Positions 11,839-17,501 of a DNA stretch of 42,774 nucleotides are shown in pieces. A program made the position numbers and the translations under genes. The stretch is from IMG/VR virus record IMGVR_UViG_3300030328_003769, positions 1 to 42,774 of that record, one strand, 5' to 3'. This stretch comes from a virus. Position 1 is the first letter of the stretch. The number at the start of each line of letters is the position of its first letter. The notes under the pieces are model-generated. The model searched no databases. It saw only the letters and a list, made by a program, of their open reading frames with translations, and had not been told where the DNA came from.

Positions 11839-12348
11839 TTATACAATTGAAAGGTTTTTATTCATTAAATAAAAGTCTGCTATTTGCTTAAAAATCGTAA
11901 AATCGGTGGTATCTCTTTTAATACTATTAACTCTATAAGAGATAATCATTATATTATTTGGTGTATATCCTTTGTTATTATCAATTCTATCTATTGTAGG
12001 ATTAAAATGTTTATTTTCTAAACCATATAAAAAAGGTTTTTTAATAACAGGACATTTATTATCTTTAGGAAATTTTGATTTAACTATTTCTTTTGTAAGA
12101 GTGAATTCCATATTCTTTTCTTTTGCTCTTCTTTTTGCTAAATGAAACAATCTATTGAAAGGGTTTTTTTCATGTAATTGTGCATTATATTTTACATCGC
12201 AAGCCCTACAATGCCATTTATGAGTATTACCTTTTAAATCTAACCAACCATTTTTTTTATTTCCAAACTGTAAAAATGATTTTTCAATTTTACACATTGT
12301 GCAAATTGAAGAGTTTGAAGGTTCTCTATGATTTTTTCTAACTTTCAT
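11839..12348 (-). CDS. HNH endonuclease (endonuclease VII-like) with zinc finger
   Basis: 169 aa. An N-terminal Cys4 zinc ribbon (CTMC near 17-20, CRAC near 47-50) is followed by a basic helix and then the HNH core PTIDRIDNNKGYTPNNIMIIS (about 117-137), ending in an Asn-rich helix (YRVNSIKRD). Such proteins are free-standing phage HNH nucleases, often homing-like, cutting intron-less alleles or nicking host or competitor DNA. It stands alone after a long structured leader and a TATGGGAT promoter, consistent with mobility as a separate cassette; target unknown. Confidence 0.8.
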   Translation of the reverse strand: MKVRKNHREPSNSSICTMCKIEKSFLQFGNKKNGWLDLKGNTHKWHCRACDVKYNAQLHEKNPFNRLFHLAKRRAKEKNMEFTLTKEIVKSKFPKDNKCPVIKKPFLYGLENKHFNPTIDRIDNNKGYTPNNIMIISYRVNSIKRDTTDFTIFKQIADFYLMNKNLSIV

Positions 12349-12501
12349 TTTATTTTATCCTTTCTTTTTGGGTGGTGGTTTCGCTGACAACCCATTTAAC
12401 CACGCATTAAGTATTTCTAACTAGTATTGCGATAATACGCCCAATTTTTTTCACGTGAAAAGACTATCCCATATATATAGGATAGTCAAGATAATATAAA
12501 A
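12349..12501 (-). promoter_or_regulatory. Promoter and structured leader of the HNH gene; site 3 of 7
   Basis: Minus strand: TTGACT (12489-12484) overlaps the inverted repeat GACTATCC/GGATAGTC (12462-12469 with 12480-12487), whose 10-nt centre contains ATATGGGAT. Downstream are the 14-bp palindrome TTTTCACGTGAAAA, a GTATT/AATAC hairpin and a GTGGTT/AACCAC hairpin, then AGAAAGGATAAAA before the ATG. No gene seen in this gap. Confidence 0.5.
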
Positions 12502-13080
12502 TTATTGTTTAGTTAATTGAAGAGCTTGCTCTCTTCTAAATGGAATTCCAAAACTACCTTTCATTATGTCATCAAGTCTAGAATTCATGCCTTCGCTAGA
12601 TCCTTCCTCGTAAAGTACATCGTTCATACAACTTTCAACATGCTCTAATTTATTTATTTCTTTAAATTCTTGCATTGTCTTACATTTATCTTCAGTTATT
12701 TGATCTACAATACTTTGAAAGCAATCATCAATCTGACTATCAGAAATAACTCTATCCTCTTGAGGTAGATTATAACTAGAAACACCATTTTTTTTAAATA
12801 TTTTAATCAATTTTTTACTTTCAGTAAGTTGTGTTTCTTTTAACTTTCTTTTTGCTTTTTGAAAGTCTTGCTCAAGTTGTAAAAACTGATTTTCATAATT
12901 ATCAATAGTCTTTTTCCATTTATCAATTTTTAATGTTTGATTAAGTTTTTTAGAGATTTGTGCTTTAACAATATCCTTCTTTTCAGATAATTTTAAATCT
13001 ATAATCCTTTTTAATGGATTAATCATTTCTCTTATTTTTTGTCTGTAATGGTCAATCTGATAAACTTTTAATTGTGCCAT
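12502..13080 (-). CDS. Coiled-coil protein, 192 aa
   Basis: Long charged helices, strongest coiled-coil between about residues 50 and 95, then a less charged C-terminal half. No enzymatic motif. Leader AGAAAGGATAAAA preceded by an unusual 59-nt stem-loop element. Function unknown. Confidence 0.65.
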   Translation of the reverse strand: MAQLKVYQIDHYRQKIREMINPLKRIIDLKLSEKKDIVKAQISKKLNQTLKIDKWKKTIDNYENQFLQLEQDFQKAKRKLKETQLTESKKLIKIFKKNGVSSYNLPQEDRVISDSQIDDCFQSIVDQITEDKCKTMQEFKEINKLEHVESCMNDVLYEEGSSEGMNSRLDDIMKGSFGIPFRREQALQLTKQ

Positions 13081-13101: not shown

Positions 13102-13160
13102 AAAAGGGGTTATCCTAAGGACTCGCACCCTTCGTTATGACTTTGTCAATAACCCCTTTT
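13102..13160 (-). ncRNA. Structured element: 12-bp stem closing two hairpins
   Basis: A perfect 12-bp stem, AAAAGGGGTTAT (13102-13113) with ATAACCCCTTTT (13149-13160), encloses two smaller hairpins. On the minus strand these are TGAC-AAA-GTCA and AAGG-GTGCGAGT-CCTT; the second resembles a tRNA T-arm. The minus strand continues TTTTTAC, so it could act as a terminator, and it lies directly before the ribosome-binding site of the 192-aa gene, so it could also act as a leader element. Confidence 0.5.
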
Positions 13161-13224: not shown

Positions 13225-13456
13225 GCATATTTTTTGTTATTTTTTCAATATCACAATTAGTCTTATTATACTTAAAAGCTGTACCAAGATACAAAGTATA
13301 TTTATTCACTTTATTTGGTGCAATTCTTTTTCTTATTTGAAATTGATCTAAACAAGCTAATTGATTTCTAACCTTAGTCAAAAATAAATTATAAGGATCT
13401 AAACTTACTCTATGAGTTTTACCGAAATAATCTTGACTTATATAATAATTTTTCAT
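13205..13456 (-). CDS. Small basic protein, 83 aa
   Basis: Basic and aromatic-rich, with short beta-like segments (NKYTLYLGTAFKYNKT). Its start overlaps the stop of the 228-aa gene (ATGA), so the pair is coupled. No family recognised; partner of the Cys-rich protein by context. Confidence 0.6.
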   Translation of the reverse strand: MKNYYISQDYFGKTHRVSLDPYNLFLTKVRNQLACLDQFQIRKRIAPNKVNKYTLYLGTAFKYNKTNCDIEKITKNMLDKFIS

Positions 13457-14139
13457 TTTCCAATATCCCCAGCTACATGGTGTCTAATAAAAGTACCATA
13501 AGGTAATGTCTTCACCCAATTTGTCAATTTTTCAGAATCAGGTCTATCTTGTTTTCTGTTTACTGTATCTTGCCATGCAAATCTAGTAAACCCTTGTCCT
13601 GCATAACAGCCCCCTTGCTCTTTTTTGCCTACTTTCTTTTTTTGGCTACCATGAGCAACAAACTTAATAATGTAATCTCTATTAATTCTTGCACATAATG
13701 GTTTACCTGAACCACAATTTTGGCACTTAATTTTTTCATTATATTCTGAAGGACACCTCACAAATTTAACACCTTGTATATTATCAACTTTATCAGTCAT
13801 TGTTGAGGGTGCTGTATAAACTGTATCTCTTTTATCATTAAAACTATTTAATGCTTGAATGAGTGTATCAGCACTATAATTTATAACAGTCTTCTTTTCC
13901 TTATTTCTTGGTAATTTTTTATAATCAAAATGACTATAAGTCCATGATAAACCATTTTTTACAACAGCATTTAAAAGGGAAGCCAAATATTTTTTATCAA
14001 TACCTTTTGCCGATTCTTTTGGTTTTGGATTTAATGCACAACTTGAAGGACAAGAACCATACATTGAAGTACCTGATCTATAAGTCGTAGCAATATTGCC
14101 TGTTTTTCTATTTGTTGAATTATTAATTAATTTTAACAT
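13453..14139 (-). CDS. Cys-rich conserved phage protein with RHxxxGD end, 228 aa
   Basis: N-terminal TNRKTGNIATTYRS segment followed by CPSSC (about 30-34). Central CQNCGSGKPLC (about 138-148), then GGCYAGQGF and a C-terminal FIRHHVAGDIGK. At least six conserved-looking cysteines suggest a zinc or iron-sulfur site. Proteins with this GNI...CP..C...CYA...RHxxxGD pattern occur in many phages; I know no established function. First gene of the minus-strand arm from the divergent promoter; leader AGAAAGGATAAAA sits behind a hairpin that can pair with it. Confidence 0.7.
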   Translation of the reverse strand: MLKLINNSTNRKTGNIATTYRSGTSMYGSCPSSCALNPKPKESAKGIDKKYLASLLNAVVKNGLSWTYSHFDYKKLPRNKEKKTVINYSADTLIQALNSFNDKRDTVYTAPSTMTDKVDNIQGVKFVRCPSEYNEKIKCQNCGSGKPLCARINRDYIIKFVAHGSQKKKVGKKEQGGCYAGQGFTRFAWQDTVNRKQDRPDSEKLTNWVKTLPYGTFIRHHVAGDIGK

Positions 14140-14146
14140 TTTATTT

Positions 14147-14192
14147 TATCCTTTCTTTAGGGTTATATACAAAGGATATAAGATATAACCCT
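14147..14192 (-). promoter_or_regulatory. Leader hairpin with anti-Shine-Dalgarno loop
   Basis: Minus strand: 10-bp stem AGGGTTATAT/ATATAACCCT (14192-14183 with 14168-14159). Its 14-nt loop contains TATCCTTT (14178-14171), the exact complement of AAAGGATA in the downstream ribosome-binding site (14154-14147). Loop pairing could hide the site; release would expose it. Confidence 0.55.
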
Positions 14193-14193
14193 G

Positions 14194-14226
14194 TATCCCA
14201 TATAACTATAATAAATTATAATTCAA
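14194..14226 (-). promoter_or_regulatory. Minus-strand promoter of the divergent hub, site 5 of 7
   Basis: -35 TTGAAT (14226-14221), 16-bp spacer, -10 TATATG (14204-14199), continuing into GGGATAC. Drives the Cys-rich gene and genes behind it. Its -35 box stands only 3 bp from that of the plus-strand promoter. Confidence 0.55.
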
Positions 14227-14229
14227 GTC

Positions 14230-14257
14230 TTGACTTTTATATTTATGGGATTATATG
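14230..14257 (+). promoter_or_regulatory. Plus-strand promoter of the divergent hub, site 6 of 7
   Basis: -35 TTGACT (14230-14235), 16-bp spacer containing TTATGGGAT, -10 TATATG (14252-14257). It would transcribe the structured leader at 14314-14559 and the plus-strand run of small genes. Confidence 0.55.
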
Positions 14258-14313
14258 TCATTTAACTTTATAACTCGGTATAATTTAGAAGTATACGCCA
14301 AAGTGTAAAGGGT

Positions 14314-14559
14314 GTTAGTAATTTAATGAAGGGGTTAGATATAACTATACAAGCGATTACTAACAAAGGGGTTAGATTCTCTACAGTAGAGGTTAAACTA
14401 GTTTTCTAATCCCAAGGGTCAGGAGTGAAGGAGAACCATAATCTTGTAAACGACTACAAGAGGGCTTCCAGAACCTTGCGTAAGTGTTTCATCGGAAACG
14501 TAGAAGGCAGAAACCCTGACAAACAGAGCCACCATGACTTAAAGCGCTATGGTGGCTCT
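14314..14559 (+). ncRNA. Large structured 5' leader with alternative pairing (candidate riboregulator)
   Basis: Stem A GTTAGTAAT/ATTACTAAC (14314-14322, 14356-14364). Stem B GGGGTTAGA/TCTAATCCC (14368-14376, 14405-14413). Stem C GTCAGG/CCTGAC (14418-14423, 14515-14520) encloses hairpins CTTGTA/TACAAG and GTTTC/GAAAC. Stem D is 11 bp, AGAGCCACCAT/ATGGTGGCTCT (14525-14535, 14549-14559). The strand AAGGGGTTAGAT occurs twice (14329, 14366), so either copy could pair with TCTAATCCC. It ends just before the AAAGAAAGGATT ribosome-binding site. Confidence 0.55.
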
Positions 14560-14583
14560 ACATTAAAAAAAGAAAGGATTAAA

Positions 14584-14892
14584 ATGGAAAATTGGGAACA
14601 ATGGGAAGAAAAATATAAACCTATACCAAACCACATAGATAAAGAAGGTTCTTATTATGCAGATCAAAATGGAATTAATTATTCTTTTGAAACTTATGGT
14701 AAAGAATTAGAGCATATACAAAACCAAAATCCTAAATATGTATGGACTTTAGGGGAGTGTGATGATGTGCAATATATTACTAATGGAAAATGGTTGGTTA
14801 ATAGACTTGCATACTTTGTATGTAAAAACCCTTGTAATGAAGAGAGAGGGTCAATTGAATATACATATCAAGTATTTAAAGAAAACGATTAA
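14584..14892 (+). CDS. Small plus-strand protein, 102 aa
   Basis: Trp- and Tyr-rich soluble protein (MENWEQWEEKYKPIP; KNPKYVWTLGECDDVQY-like centre). An upstream GTG at 14425 keeps the frame open, but that stretch is strongly structured RNA, while AGAAAGGATT stands directly before the ATG at 14584. The ATG is therefore preferred. No family recognised; first gene of the plus arm. Confidence 0.65.
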   Translation: MENWEQWEEKYKPIPNHIDKEGSYYADQNGINYSFETYGKELEHIQNQNPKYVWTLGECDDVQYITNGKWLVNRLAYFVCKNPCNEERGSIEYTYQVFKEND

Positions 14893-14906
14893 TAGAAAGG
14901 ATAAAA

Positions 14907-15371
14907 ATGAGTGTAGATACAGAGCTATATAACAAAAATGATAATCAAGTTTATCTAACACCTACAAAATGGTCAGCTACAGAGAGAAGACTATTTCAGG
15001 TAAAATATAAAGATCAAAAACTTTTTAGAGCTTTTGAATTACAATATTCTAAATGGGCAATATACAACATAAAAGATTTTGAAGATGTTGAAATATTAAA
15101 ATATACCGATGATGGTTTTTACAATGTAAAACTTAAAGGGGAAACTTATTTAGAAGAGGCGCAAGATGTCAGTTTTGAAAGTTGGTGTGGTAATTTAGAA
15201 GTAAAAAAATTATTTAAAGATTGGCATGATAATGAGTTGGAATTATTTTTAGAAGATCACTCTAATTTATTTAAAATTGAAAGTGTGCAAAGTGATGTAA
15301 AATGCACTATAGAAGTTAGTGATTATGTTAAATTAAAAAAGTATTTAAAAAAGAAAGGAAGTAAAAAATGA
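14907..15371 (+). CDS. Plus-strand protein, 154 aa
   Basis: Soluble, acidic, with a mixed alpha/beta look; no cysteine motif (one Cys near 105, one near 135). Strong leader AGAAAGGATAAAA. Its stop overlaps the next start (ATGA). Function unknown. Confidence 0.65.
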   Translation: MSVDTELYNKNDNQVYLTPTKWSATERRLFQVKYKDQKLFRAFELQYSKWAIYNIKDFEDVEILKYTDDGFYNVKLKGETYLEEAQDVSFESWCGNLEVKKLFKDWHDNELELFLEDHSNLFKIESVQSDVKCTIEVSDYVKLKKYLKKKGSKK

Positions 15372-15499
15372 AAGCATATGAATTAATAAAACTATTAGAC
15401 AATACTTTTACTGATGTTGAGTTTGATGTTTTTGAAGACATTGAAGGATTAGTAAGAGTAAACTTTGTTGTTGATGTAGAGGAGGGTGAAGATGCCTAA
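15368..15499 (+). CDS. Small acidic protein, 43 aa
   Basis: Found by hand translation; AAGAAAGGAAG leads the ATG at 15368. Highly acidic (FDVFEDIEGLVR, VEEGEDA end). Size and charge resemble DNA-mimic or inhibitor proteins of phages, but this is speculation. It overlaps genes on both sides. Confidence 0.55.
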   Translation: MKAYELIKLLDNTFTDVEFDVFEDIEGLVRVNFVVDVEEGEDA

Positions 15500-15653
15500 A
15501 TATACAGTAATACAGAGTTATACTGCTCAGGATATTTATAAAAATGTTGAGGCAGTAGATGTAGATGATGCAATTAATAAGATTGGTGGTTTACCAGTTG
15601 ATGAGAATAACCACGAAGATACAGAAACAGAAGTAAAATTGGAGGAAGAGTGA
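15492..15653 (+). CDS. Small acidic protein, 53 aa
   Basis: Found by hand translation, with GGAGG before the ATG at 15492. Begins MPKYTVIQSYTAQDIYKNVEA, then an acidic tail ending EVKLEEE. The N-terminal pattern fits a short beta-alpha unit. Overlaps neighbours at both ends; function unknown. Confidence 0.55.
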   Translation: MPKYTVIQSYTAQDIYKNVEAVDVDDAINKIGGLPVDENNHEDTETEVKLEEE

Positions 15654-15838
15654 ATAAACAAGAAAGAGAAAAATTTTTAGAAAATTGTTATGAAAGAGCT
15701 TTTGTTATCTACAGTTATGACAAAAATTTACACATAGCACATTTAAAAAATTCTAATATGCCATTAAAAGATTTTTTAAAATCATACAAAGTTAAGATGA
15801 GAGAATTAACTGATGAGGAGGTAATATATACACCATGA
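15650..15838 (+). CDS. Small basic helical protein, 62 aa
   Basis: GTG start preceded by GGAGGAAGA inside the previous gene. Basic and helical, with a FLENCYERAFVIYSY segment. Coupled on both sides by short overlaps (GTGA, ATGA). Function unknown. Confidence 0.55.
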   Translation: MNKQEREKFLENCYERAFVIYSYDKNLHIAHLKNSNMPLKDFLKSYKVKMRELTDEEVIYTP

Positions 15839-16008
15839 ATAAAATAATAATTTACAAAGAAGGTGAGTATCAATCACTTCCTATGACTGAAAGTTTATTT
15901 TGGAATAGAGTTGATAATTTAAAAAGAGCTGTATTAACAAGTGAGGACTTTGAATTTAGATTAATGTGGTATCATAAACTACAAGAATTATTGAAAAAAG
16001 TACCCTAG
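15835..16008 (+). CDS. Small protein, 57 aa, last gene of the plus run
   Basis: Found by hand translation; the ATG overlaps the previous stop (ATGA). Charged helical sequence with FWNRVDNLKRAVL and HKLQELLKKV. It ends 19 bases before the convergent TerS gene. No family recognised. Confidence 0.5.
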   Translation: MNKIIIYKEGEYQSLPMTESLFWNRVDNLKRAVLTSEDFEFRLMWYHKLQELLKKVP

Positions 16009-16026
16009 TGTTTATTTATTTATTTT

Positions 16027-16539
16027 TTAACTGTCTTGGTTGGATTGTTTTAATTCTTTATGTTCTAATTCAGTTGAATCGATGACTTCATATTCAGCAT
16101 TAACAATATTATTATCCCGTATCTCTTTTAATTTTGACTCTAATTCTTTTCTAGTCATACTATCAAGAGATGCGGTCACAACCTCTTTACGATCCACATA
16201 AAAACCACCAAGTTGACCTCTTCTAAATTCAGCATTTATTGCAGGTCCTAACTGTCCATTTTCAACAGCTTTATCTCTTAATCTAGCTAATTCTCTAGAA
16301 TGTTTGACAATATCAATTTTAGTAGCATCAGCGTATTCTCTTTGAAGTTTTTCAATTGCTTCAACAACACCTGGGTAATACTTAGGATTTCTTAAATTAG
16401 ATGCTGCAGCAGTTGCACTATGTTCTTTATATCCTGCTTGTCTTGCACATTCTGTTGGAGTTATTCTTCCATTTTCTTTACAAAATATCTCAACAAATGC
16501 TTTTTGTCTGGGACTTAACCCACCTCTATTTTTTGGCAT
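16027..16539 (-). CDS. Terminase small subunit, about 170 aa
   Basis: DNA-recognition subunit that marks the packaging site and regulates TerL. The N-terminal helix-turn-helix is of the Terminase_2 type: LSPRQKAFVEIFCKENG followed by PTECARQAGY. A basic and helical oligomerisation region and an acidic tail follow. A TTG start nine codons upstream is open, but the ATG at 16539 has AGGA just before it and is preferred. It is about 6.6 kb from TerL. TGTAACA iterons lie upstream of its start, a possible pac region or operator. Confidence 0.88.
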   Translation of the reverse strand: MPKNRGGLSPRQKAFVEIFCKENGRITPTECARQAGYKEHSATAAASNLRNPKYYPGVVEAIEKLQREYADATKIDIVKHSRELARLRDKAVENGQLGPAINAEFRRGQLGGFYVDRKEVVTASLDSMTRKELESKLKEIRDNNIVNAEYEVIDSTELEHKELKQSNQDS

Positions 16540-16634
16540 AATTCCTATAATATCCTTCTTTTTCAAAAAGGTATAGTTTATTTTTACCCTAACTATTTAT
16601 AATATACTAAGTATGGCTTAAAATATCCCAATAG

Positions 16635-16731
16635 TGTAACATATAATAAAATCTTTTGTTACAAGATTGTGACATAAAAACATATATATTTCAATAAATT
16701 AACTTAATGTAACACTGTAACAGGTGTAACA
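16635..16731. repeat. TGTAACA iterons, four direct and one inverted
   Basis: Copies at 16635, 16708, 16716 and 16725 (direct) and 16657 (inverted, TGTTACA). The last three are spaced 8 and 9 bp. The arrangement fits binding sites for a phage protein such as TerS, a replication initiator or a repressor; which one cannot be told. Confidence 0.6.
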
Positions 16732-16789
16732 CAGGTTTGAGCAGTAAAAATATTCTAGGGGGGCTAAAATAAACTATACTTTTATAATT

Positions 16790-16836
16790 TGATAGTAGAG
16801 CCATACGATCAGGAGGAAAGAAAGACTCTACTATCA
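16790..16836. other. Hairpin with Shine-Dalgarno-like loop
   Basis: Perfect 11-bp stem TGATAGTAGAG/CTCTACTATCA with a 25-nt loop carrying AGGAGGAAAG on the plus strand. No start codon follows within a useful distance on the plus strand, so the loop does not serve an obvious gene. Confidence 0.5.
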
Positions 16837-16866
16837 TTTAACAACATATGCATTGATGATTTAACG

Positions 16867-16936
16867 GGTTATGTATGAACACCGGGAATCGAGGCCCGAA
16901 CCATCTCCAAGCTTTTGCCATGATTTGCATATAACC
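16867..16936. ncRNA. 70-nt tRNA-like fold, not a canonical tRNA
   Basis: The ends pair GGTTATGT with ATATAACC (one G-U), extendable past one mismatch. Inside, the minus strand has a T-arm-like hairpin CGGG-CCTCGATT-CCCG. No anticodon arm can be drawn, so a working tRNA is not supported. It could be a tRNA remnant, a tRNA mimic or a structured site. Confidence 0.4.
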
Positions 16937-16965
16937 ATTGAAAAATTCCTCTATCCCAACTTTAA

Positions 16966-16998: not shown

Positions 16999-17220
16999 TT
17001 ACTCATTCGAAATCGTGTAGTTTTCGAAACATTCTGGGTCAAGTGGTGGTCCGTAGTAGATCGCAAGGGTTTTGTTACTACCTTCGGTCCATGTTTGGTG
17101 GTAGTACTTATCTTCATTGATTTCCCCTTGTGAGTGACAAACCTTACACTGTTCAATGACCTGTTCTGCTTCAAACGATAATCTGACATATCCATTTCCT
17201 TTACATTTAGAACAAATCAT
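16999..17220 (-). CDS. Small DnaJ-type zinc-finger protein, 73 aa
   Basis: CSKCKGNGYV at residues 3-12 and CKVCHSQGEI near 25-34 form one CxxCxGxG-type zinc centre like those of DnaJ or of small phage zinc proteins. The rest is acidic and Tyr-rich. Starts with ATGA overlap to the upstream zinc-ribbon gene, and the terminator follows it. Substrate unknown. Confidence 0.7.
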   Translation of the reverse strand: MICSKCKGNGYVRLSFEAEQVIEQCKVCHSQGEINEDKYYHQTWTEGSNKTLAIYYGPPLDPECFENYTISNE

Positions 17221-17501
17221 AACGCTTGCTCATTATTGTTTTTAATCTGTCCCACTTCTTTCTTATTGCTAACTCTCTCAGGGTCCGTGGTTCCCGTAAC
17301 GCTTTCTTTGATACATCTTTGTAGAGTTTCATTAATCGTTTCTTTAGTTTCATTTATCTCTCTCCTGTTATAACATCTAATGCAATAGTAATTACTTCGC
17401 TTTCTACTACTACTATAATTCGCAATTAAATTTACTTCCAAATATTTTCGTTCACACTTGTAACAATGATCATATTTGTCGTAATGTTGTTCAAAATACA
17501 T
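17217..17501 (-). CDS. Zinc-ribbon-like protein, 94 aa
   Basis: CYKC near residues 13-16 and CIRCYNRR near 40-43 form a Cys4 ribbon; the C-terminal half is charged and Gln/Asn-rich. A TCCGTGGTTC heptad-repeat fragment lies inside. Preceded by AGGAGGAAGAAAGA. It may bind nucleic acid or a host protein; function unknown. Confidence 0.65.
   Translation of the reverse strand: MYFEQHYDKYDHCYKCERKYLEVNLIANYSSSRKRSNYYCIRCYNRREINETKETINETLQRCIKESVTGTTDPERVSNKKEVGQIKNNNEQAL

Follow-up and report, generated by a model that had tools for sequence, protein, structure and literature searches.

A phage operon leader that is probably a cassette-like array of exchangeable RNA modules

Introduction

What does a long and heavily folded leader do between the promoter and the first gene of a phage operon? 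The question is raised by a ~1.4 kb operon on the plus strand of the 42,774-nucleotide stretch of viral DNA analysed here (the window), which is part of a 48,014-base virus record. The nearest isolates of the marine phage of this window (W), judged by TerL and DNA polymerase, are phage 023Pt_psg01, Pelagibacter phages HTVC027P and HTVC023P, and phage DSL-LC04 (50-70% identity), and a SAR11-like host is a guess made from these relatives. The operon lies opposite a divergent neighbour gene (13453-14139, minus strand), and the 102-residue product of its first gene had no match in Pfam and none among isolated phages. A first-pass annotation had proposed that the leader is a structured, non-coding RNA with the layout of a riboswitch or attenuator, in which two copies of a duplicated strand compete for one partner. 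We compared the leader of W with those of other viral loci fetched for this purpose (numbered with the prefix L), and weighed this proposal against other readings.

Results

The predicted promoter of W has the form TTGACT-N16-TATATG, with a predicted start at ~14264, and is probably an early one. This promoter type (TTGAC-N16/17 with TGGGA before TATA) recurs ~20 times in the loci, with a module array or a short leader immediately after it. The span from just after the promoter to the RBS is filled by five independent RNA modules in the order M, A, X, B and C (Table 1); the modules are compact (35-110 nt), each is closed by its own stem, and they are joined by short A/U-rich linkers. When read from the sequence, the four stems reported by the first-pass annotation and its duplicated AAGGGGTTAGAT (copies at 14329-14340 and 14366-14377) lie where it had placed them, and a fifth module that it lacked, M, has the best covariation support. 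A TATAAT at 14279, considered as a promoter, was rejected as part of module M. For the 311-nt leader, the predicted folding energy is -80.7 kcal/mol versus -64.2 +/- 4.7 kcal/mol for shuffled sequences (z -3.5; 0 of 100 shuffles were as good), and the fold of the whole intergenic region (z about -5) gives the strongest plus-strand value among the intergenic regions of the window.

Table 1. Positions of the leader features and of two minus-strand leaders in the window
Feature	Position	Strand	Description
Predicted promoter	14230..14257	+	-35 TTGACT 14230-14235; TGGGAT 14246-14251; -10 TATATG 14252-14257
Module M	14265..14311	+	CTTTATAACTCGG..TTTAGAAGTATACGCCAAAGTGTAAAG; CM R2 match 70.5 bits (W sequence itself in model)
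Module A	14314..14364	+	long stem GTTAGTAATT/..ATTACTAAC; inner stem GUUA/UAAC
Stem A	14314-/-14364	+	GTTAGTAAT/ATTACTAAC; 9 bp and more (11-bp)
Module X	14368..14413	+	GGGGTTAGA/TCTAATCCC closing CTCTACAGTAGAG hairpin; holds duplicate copy 2 and its partner
Stem X	14368-14376 / 14405-14413	+	GGGGTTAGA/TCTAATCCC; 9 bp including one G-U
Module B	14416..14522	+	three-way junction; P1 GTCAGG-A-GT/AC-CCTGAC
Stem B	14418-14423 / 14515-14520	+	GTCAGG/CCTGAC; 6 bp
Module C	14525..14559	+	AGAGCCACCATGACTTAAAGCGCTATGGTGGCTCT; core found in 9 IMG/VR stretches
Stem C	14525-14535 / 14549-14559	+	AGAGCCACCAT/ATGGTGGCTCT; 11 bp
RBS AAAGGA	14573..14578	+	from sequence; mostly unpaired in two longer folds
First operon gene	14584..14892	+	102 aa; start ATG 14584; relatives L002-L004, 76-84% identity
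Module S	13102..13160	-	leader of 12502-13080 gene; AAAAGGGGTTATTGACAAAGTCATAACGAAGGGTGCGAGTCCTTAGGATAACCCCTTTT; also in L002 and, with stem changed, in L149
Structured leader	12368..12444	-	from fold; closed by TTGGG/CCCAA; upstream of 11839-12348 gene

Two further leaders of the window are structured on the minus strand. One holds module S; the other, within a region of fold z -4.6 (12319-12531), is a single sequence that had no relative among the fetched loci. Also on the minus strand, positions 16855-16905 form a closed structured element, GATGGTTCGGGCCTCGATTCCCGG..AACCCGTTAAATCATC, which is conserved with changes in close relatives.

An open frame crosses the leader from a GTG at 14425 to 14892, and the first-pass annotation had judged it non-coding. 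This judgement holds, as the frame is merely an upstream in-frame extension of the gene that begins at ATG 14584, and in relatives the region varies by indels and by gains and losses of whole modules, with changes that are compensatory in RNA pairs. That a protein is encoded from the GTG, as the openness of the frame might suggest, is on these grounds extremely improbable.

The proposed switch fared differently. The partition function over M, A and X gives a mean probability of pairing with 14405-14413 of 0.986 for copy 2 and 0.0003 for copy 1; forcing copy 1 onto this strand is 5.4 kcal/mol worse than copy 2 and would require the 11-bp stem A to open. In longer contexts copy 1 pairs at 0.0014-0.0020, and copy 2 drops to 0.25-0.57 because the X arm (14405-14413) also reaches the RBS, which it covers with a probability of 0.64, 0.19 and 0.11 in three contexts of growing length, or other sequence. 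This arm-RBS alternative is specific to W, since segment 14368-14413 was found in no relative, and an effect of the X arm on translation in W is possible according to these models. Module X, which sits exactly between A and B, is confined to W among all loci fetched and, as a single sequence, is the weakest part of the array; in L006, L007 and L008 the segment is wholly missing, including copy 2 and the partner strand. No U tract follows any leader stem, the leader contains no intrinsic terminator, and the one terminator-like site in 14100-16950 (2.85 kb, 0.9 expected) lies past the operon at 16370. The Rfam scan that had been suggested with the switch (Rfam 15, 4227 families, gathering threshold) returned 0 matches in the window or in 12 related loci (112 kb), and at permissive thresholds the best sub-threshold match was Yfr11, with 27 of 44 bits. 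The duplicate and its partner strand are genuine, as is the arm-RBS alternative in W, but a riboswitch or attenuator whose duplicated strand changes partners is very unlikely: copy 1 pairs at no more than 0.002, there are no conserved exclusive folds, X is missing in relatives, the leader has no terminator and no riboswitch was matched in Rfam. A ligand riboswitch is less likely and fits neither the variation of the modules nor the apparent lack of an expression platform.

The leader as structured non-coding RNA, in contrast, was borne out by compensatory changes in homologues. Module M was compared in 9 distinct sequences, in which all 108 cells of its 12 pairs hold standard pairs (85% in shuffles) and 6 of the 12 pairs are altered on both sides, a kind of count that kinship among the sequences inflates; its covariation score is 0.447 versus 0.128 +/- 0.034 for shuffled sequences and at most 0.118 for slid partners. 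Even between the close relatives W and L006, a C-G to G-C double change occurs at 14274/14303 in the ACU/AGU helix of M. In module B (7 sequences, 16 pairs), 97% of the cells are paired and 5 of the 16 pairs are altered on both sides; GGAGAACC..GGCTTCCA is invariant, and the P2 loop and P3 are variable. Module A is kept in relatives with a U-A to A-U change in the outer stem (L013) and in the inner stem (L006), in a comparison of only 4-5 sequences. The stem of module S changes from GGUUAU/AUAACC in W to GGUUGG/CCAACC in L149, an inner C-G of module C becomes A-U in L044, and the outer stems of C vary among AGAGC/GCTCT, TGAAG/CTTCA and TGAGA/TCTCA. In module N, a comparison of L044 and L064 by eye reveals CUAG/CUAG replaced by CGAG/CUCG and GCCGA/UCGGC by GCCCC/GGGGC, probably both helices of a covarying pseudoknot. 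The loop of module C in W (14543-14548) is the self-complementary hexamer AGCGCT, which is GGTACC in the module C of L024 and L146; these two states alone are suggestive of a kissing or dimer contact.

The modules are also recognized beyond closely related leaders. CM R2, built for module M, gave 26 matches in 86 sources, and CM R1, built for module B, matched W, L009, L010, L022, L026 and L053 at E <= 2e-9, with the next best match at E 4.6. In L141 the B core GAGGAGAACC..GGCTTCCA is combined with an unrelated P1. The exact patterns with which loci were fetched partly determine the cores of M and C; the same cores are present in carriers that came from gene-based searches instead (W, L006, L013 and L044 for M; L053 for B). 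The recurrence of the same cores with different outer stems indicates that the modules are real RNA elements.

We then compared how modules are arranged. Briefly, 20 homologous viral loci were obtained through the divergent neighbour gene, and further carriers came from pattern scans for B, A, M and C and from the terminase set; the de novo comparison of intergenic stretches was noisy, and the modules were afterwards checked individually. The neighbour protein of L006-L010 shares 97-99% identity with that of W, yet the leaders differ: M-A-X-B-C in W is M-A-B in L006 and L007, M1b-A'-B in L010 and M1b-A-D-B in L009, and L022 has M1b-A-D-B-E. L024, whose neighbour protein is 98% identical over 87 aa, has C with another module, L013 has A-P-M, L002 has two other modules, and the leaders of L011 (neighbour protein 90%) and L012 are module-free. 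In L026, L028 and L030, B adjoins the predicted start. Among the other arrays are C-B in L053, C-Q-M-N in L044, T-M-R-M (with M twice) in L132 and C-S in L149. Many of the relatives' leaders thus have nearly the same promoter followed by whole closed structures that differ, with near-identity persisting to ~6-8 nt past the -10 and the module differences starting there; module-free leaders also follow this promoter type. Modules are reordered, replaced, duplicated or missing between nearly identical flanks, and the exchange junctions map to the short linkers that separate one closing stem from the next. In addition to M, A, B and C, recurrence in differing sequence surroundings was seen for modules N, P, Q, R, S, T, U and E, several of them at similar promoters, and the structured pieces D and V were found in close relatives only; the modules differ from one another in both sequence and fold. 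On this comparative evidence the modules are real RNA structures that move between phages independently of the sequence around them, and the leader of W is, with high confidence, a cassette-like array of self-contained RNA modules. Separately, L026 7180-7300 holds two long hairpins (CAAGCTGCAA.. and GCCAGCTAG..) between a terminator and the promoter of its module B.

Unlike modules also lead the same gene. A small protein family (..KTCAER..W..R.EDL.DPE.E.LGFDYV..HTF), of which the L053 member had no Pfam match, is preceded by M in L130, T-M-R-M in L132, T-..-M in L138, C-B in L053, T in L055 and R in L058, from which it follows that different modules can occupy the position before one gene. 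Some carriers are not visibly related to W: 16 of its proteins had no match in the M carriers L123, L125-L128, L133, L135, L137, L139-L141 and L143-L145, which are partial contigs, and in the same search related loci matched the W terminase and portal at 54-76% identity. The TerL of L126 is phrog_2 and that of W is phrog_38, and W-type TerL had no match in four whole records of the L123-L145 group, in a search run without a positive control. As L141 carries B plus M, both M and B are present, to judge from these partial contigs, in phages without detectable relatives of W proteins. Among isolated phages, no relative of the W leader was found, and 19 module sequences gave nothing beyond one chance-level match; in bacterial genomes, the B pattern had two matches, about the number expected by chance, both in Actinobacteria without the rest of the module.

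Stretches of HTVC027P and HTVC023P searched for modules M and B contained neither. HTVC027P (L039) has at 17181-17335 an unannotated stretch of ~130-155 nt between divergent operons with 86-90% identity to uncultured L099 385-539 and L087 5613-5482, which may represent a conserved RNA or an overlooked gene. Upstream of a gene, L070 5873-5956, L084 15-71 and L099 793-878 have in common GGATCAG..CCC..AAGACGGC-loop-GCGGTGTGA with stems that differ, which may be a further RNA motif.

Discussion

The placement of the modules bears on their role. In most module-bearing leaders the first stem (at least 4 pairs) begins ~4-9 nt past the -10, near the expected start; 13 of 23 leaders have such a stem against 7.7 expected from shuffles, which is weakly above chance and refers to predicted starts. 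The distance from the last module to the RBS is short, and no terminator follows a module. The array would begin at or beside the transcription start and stop just before the RBS, and because any module can occupy the same place, the modules could share one common cis job at the 5' end of the mRNA. Of the jobs considered, we tentatively take the most likely one to be guarding the 5' end as a barrier to RNases. The first stem would leave almost no free 5' nucleotides, the intricate cores (the probable pseudoknot of N and the invariant internal loops of B and M) would resist unwinding or attack by 5'-to-3' RNases, and tandem modules would act as backups. Exchange between nearly identical flanks, compensatory changes in M, B, S, C and A, the occurrence of one gene family behind different modules and the presence of modules in unrelated carriers are consistent with a 5' guard, as is their position between start and RBS; however, the near-start position exceeds chance only weakly, and a generic barrier alone needs no sequence-conserved cores.

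The chief rival to 5' protection is that the array is a series of small non-coding RNAs or decoys, cleaved at the A/U-rich linkers, whose targets in trans would be host defence, host regulators or nucleases, and which are traded as defence and counter-defence genes are. The conserved cores with free outer stems, the tandem order with A/U-rich linkers, the high turnover between near-identical phages and the spread into unrelated phages would agree with it, and RNA-based anti-defence is known as a kind (PMC10651486). Against it, a gene follows the modules examined and no terminator intervenes, and the occurrence of different modules before the same gene suits a cis role. Taken by itself such a trans role is somewhat unlikely, although we regard it as almost as likely as mRNA protection.

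Two further cis roles appear improbable. The nascent modules could bind RNA polymerase and make it resist pausing and termination, as in phage HK022, where pairing in putL, located just downstream of PL, starts at A3 (PMC9378689). As with the put RNAs, which need no phage protein, structured cis RNAs here directly follow probable early promoters, with the first paired base close to the start. However, the ~1.4 kb W operon contains no terminator-like site of the intrinsic type and hence offers little to antiterminate, and put is a single conserved element (~70 nt, two stem-loops) with shared sequence, whereas the modules are many, unlike, arranged in tandem and exchanged, and tandem unlike elements would not be needed for this purpose; we therefore consider antitermination improbable. 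Slightly less probable again is that each module binds a ribosomal, phage or host protein and tunes translation of the operon. The invariant internal loops of B and M could be such binding sites, but no module includes the RBS, which stays largely unpaired in the majority of the leaders that were folded, and unlike modules precede the same gene.

Several known systems are similar in part. The stem-loops of the ompA type, which stabilise bacterial mRNAs, are single plain hairpins that start at or near the first nucleotide. Their position would be analogous to that of the first stem here, near the predicted start, but the leaders described here are arrays with conserved cores and horizontal exchange. 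Exoribonuclease-resistant RNAs (xrRNAs) often occur in tandem and combine a conserved core with variable stems. The modules may be likened to them as compact folded elements with these same properties; viral xrRNAs, however, stop Xrn1 and are located in 3' regions of RNA viruses of eukaryotes (PMC5760640). RNA anti-CRISPRs (Racrs) are also small RNAs encoded by phages, but they mimic CRISPR repeats (PMC10651486). Orphan RNA motifs from metagenomes likewise covary and have no known ligand (PMC2864571, PMC8040213), but they have been reported as single motifs, whereas here unlike motifs share one genomic position and are shuffled.

Modules of this kind were not described in the literature searched. 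To our knowledge, structured phage leaders have been known singly. We give roughly even odds to the reading that marine phages share a pool of at least 12 unlike RNA modules, recombined as cassettes behind promoters and serving as an mRNA shield or in anti-defence. Within this reading, a pool of unlike, shuffled RNA modules at one position would be the equivalent, at the level of RNA and not described before, of gene cassettes, and its novelty would lie in the arrangement rather than in a proven biochemical function. As far as the searches of tools and papers reach, there is no description of unlike RNA elements that share a single position, are exchanged at the edges of modules by near-identical phages and cross to phages without detectable shared proteins. 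Such a set suggests that phages may trade RNA elements in the way they trade accessory genes. The modules are compact and open to individual tests in standard reporters. Stabilisation of mRNA would make them useful parts, and action on host defence would add an RNA side to the conflict between phage and host.
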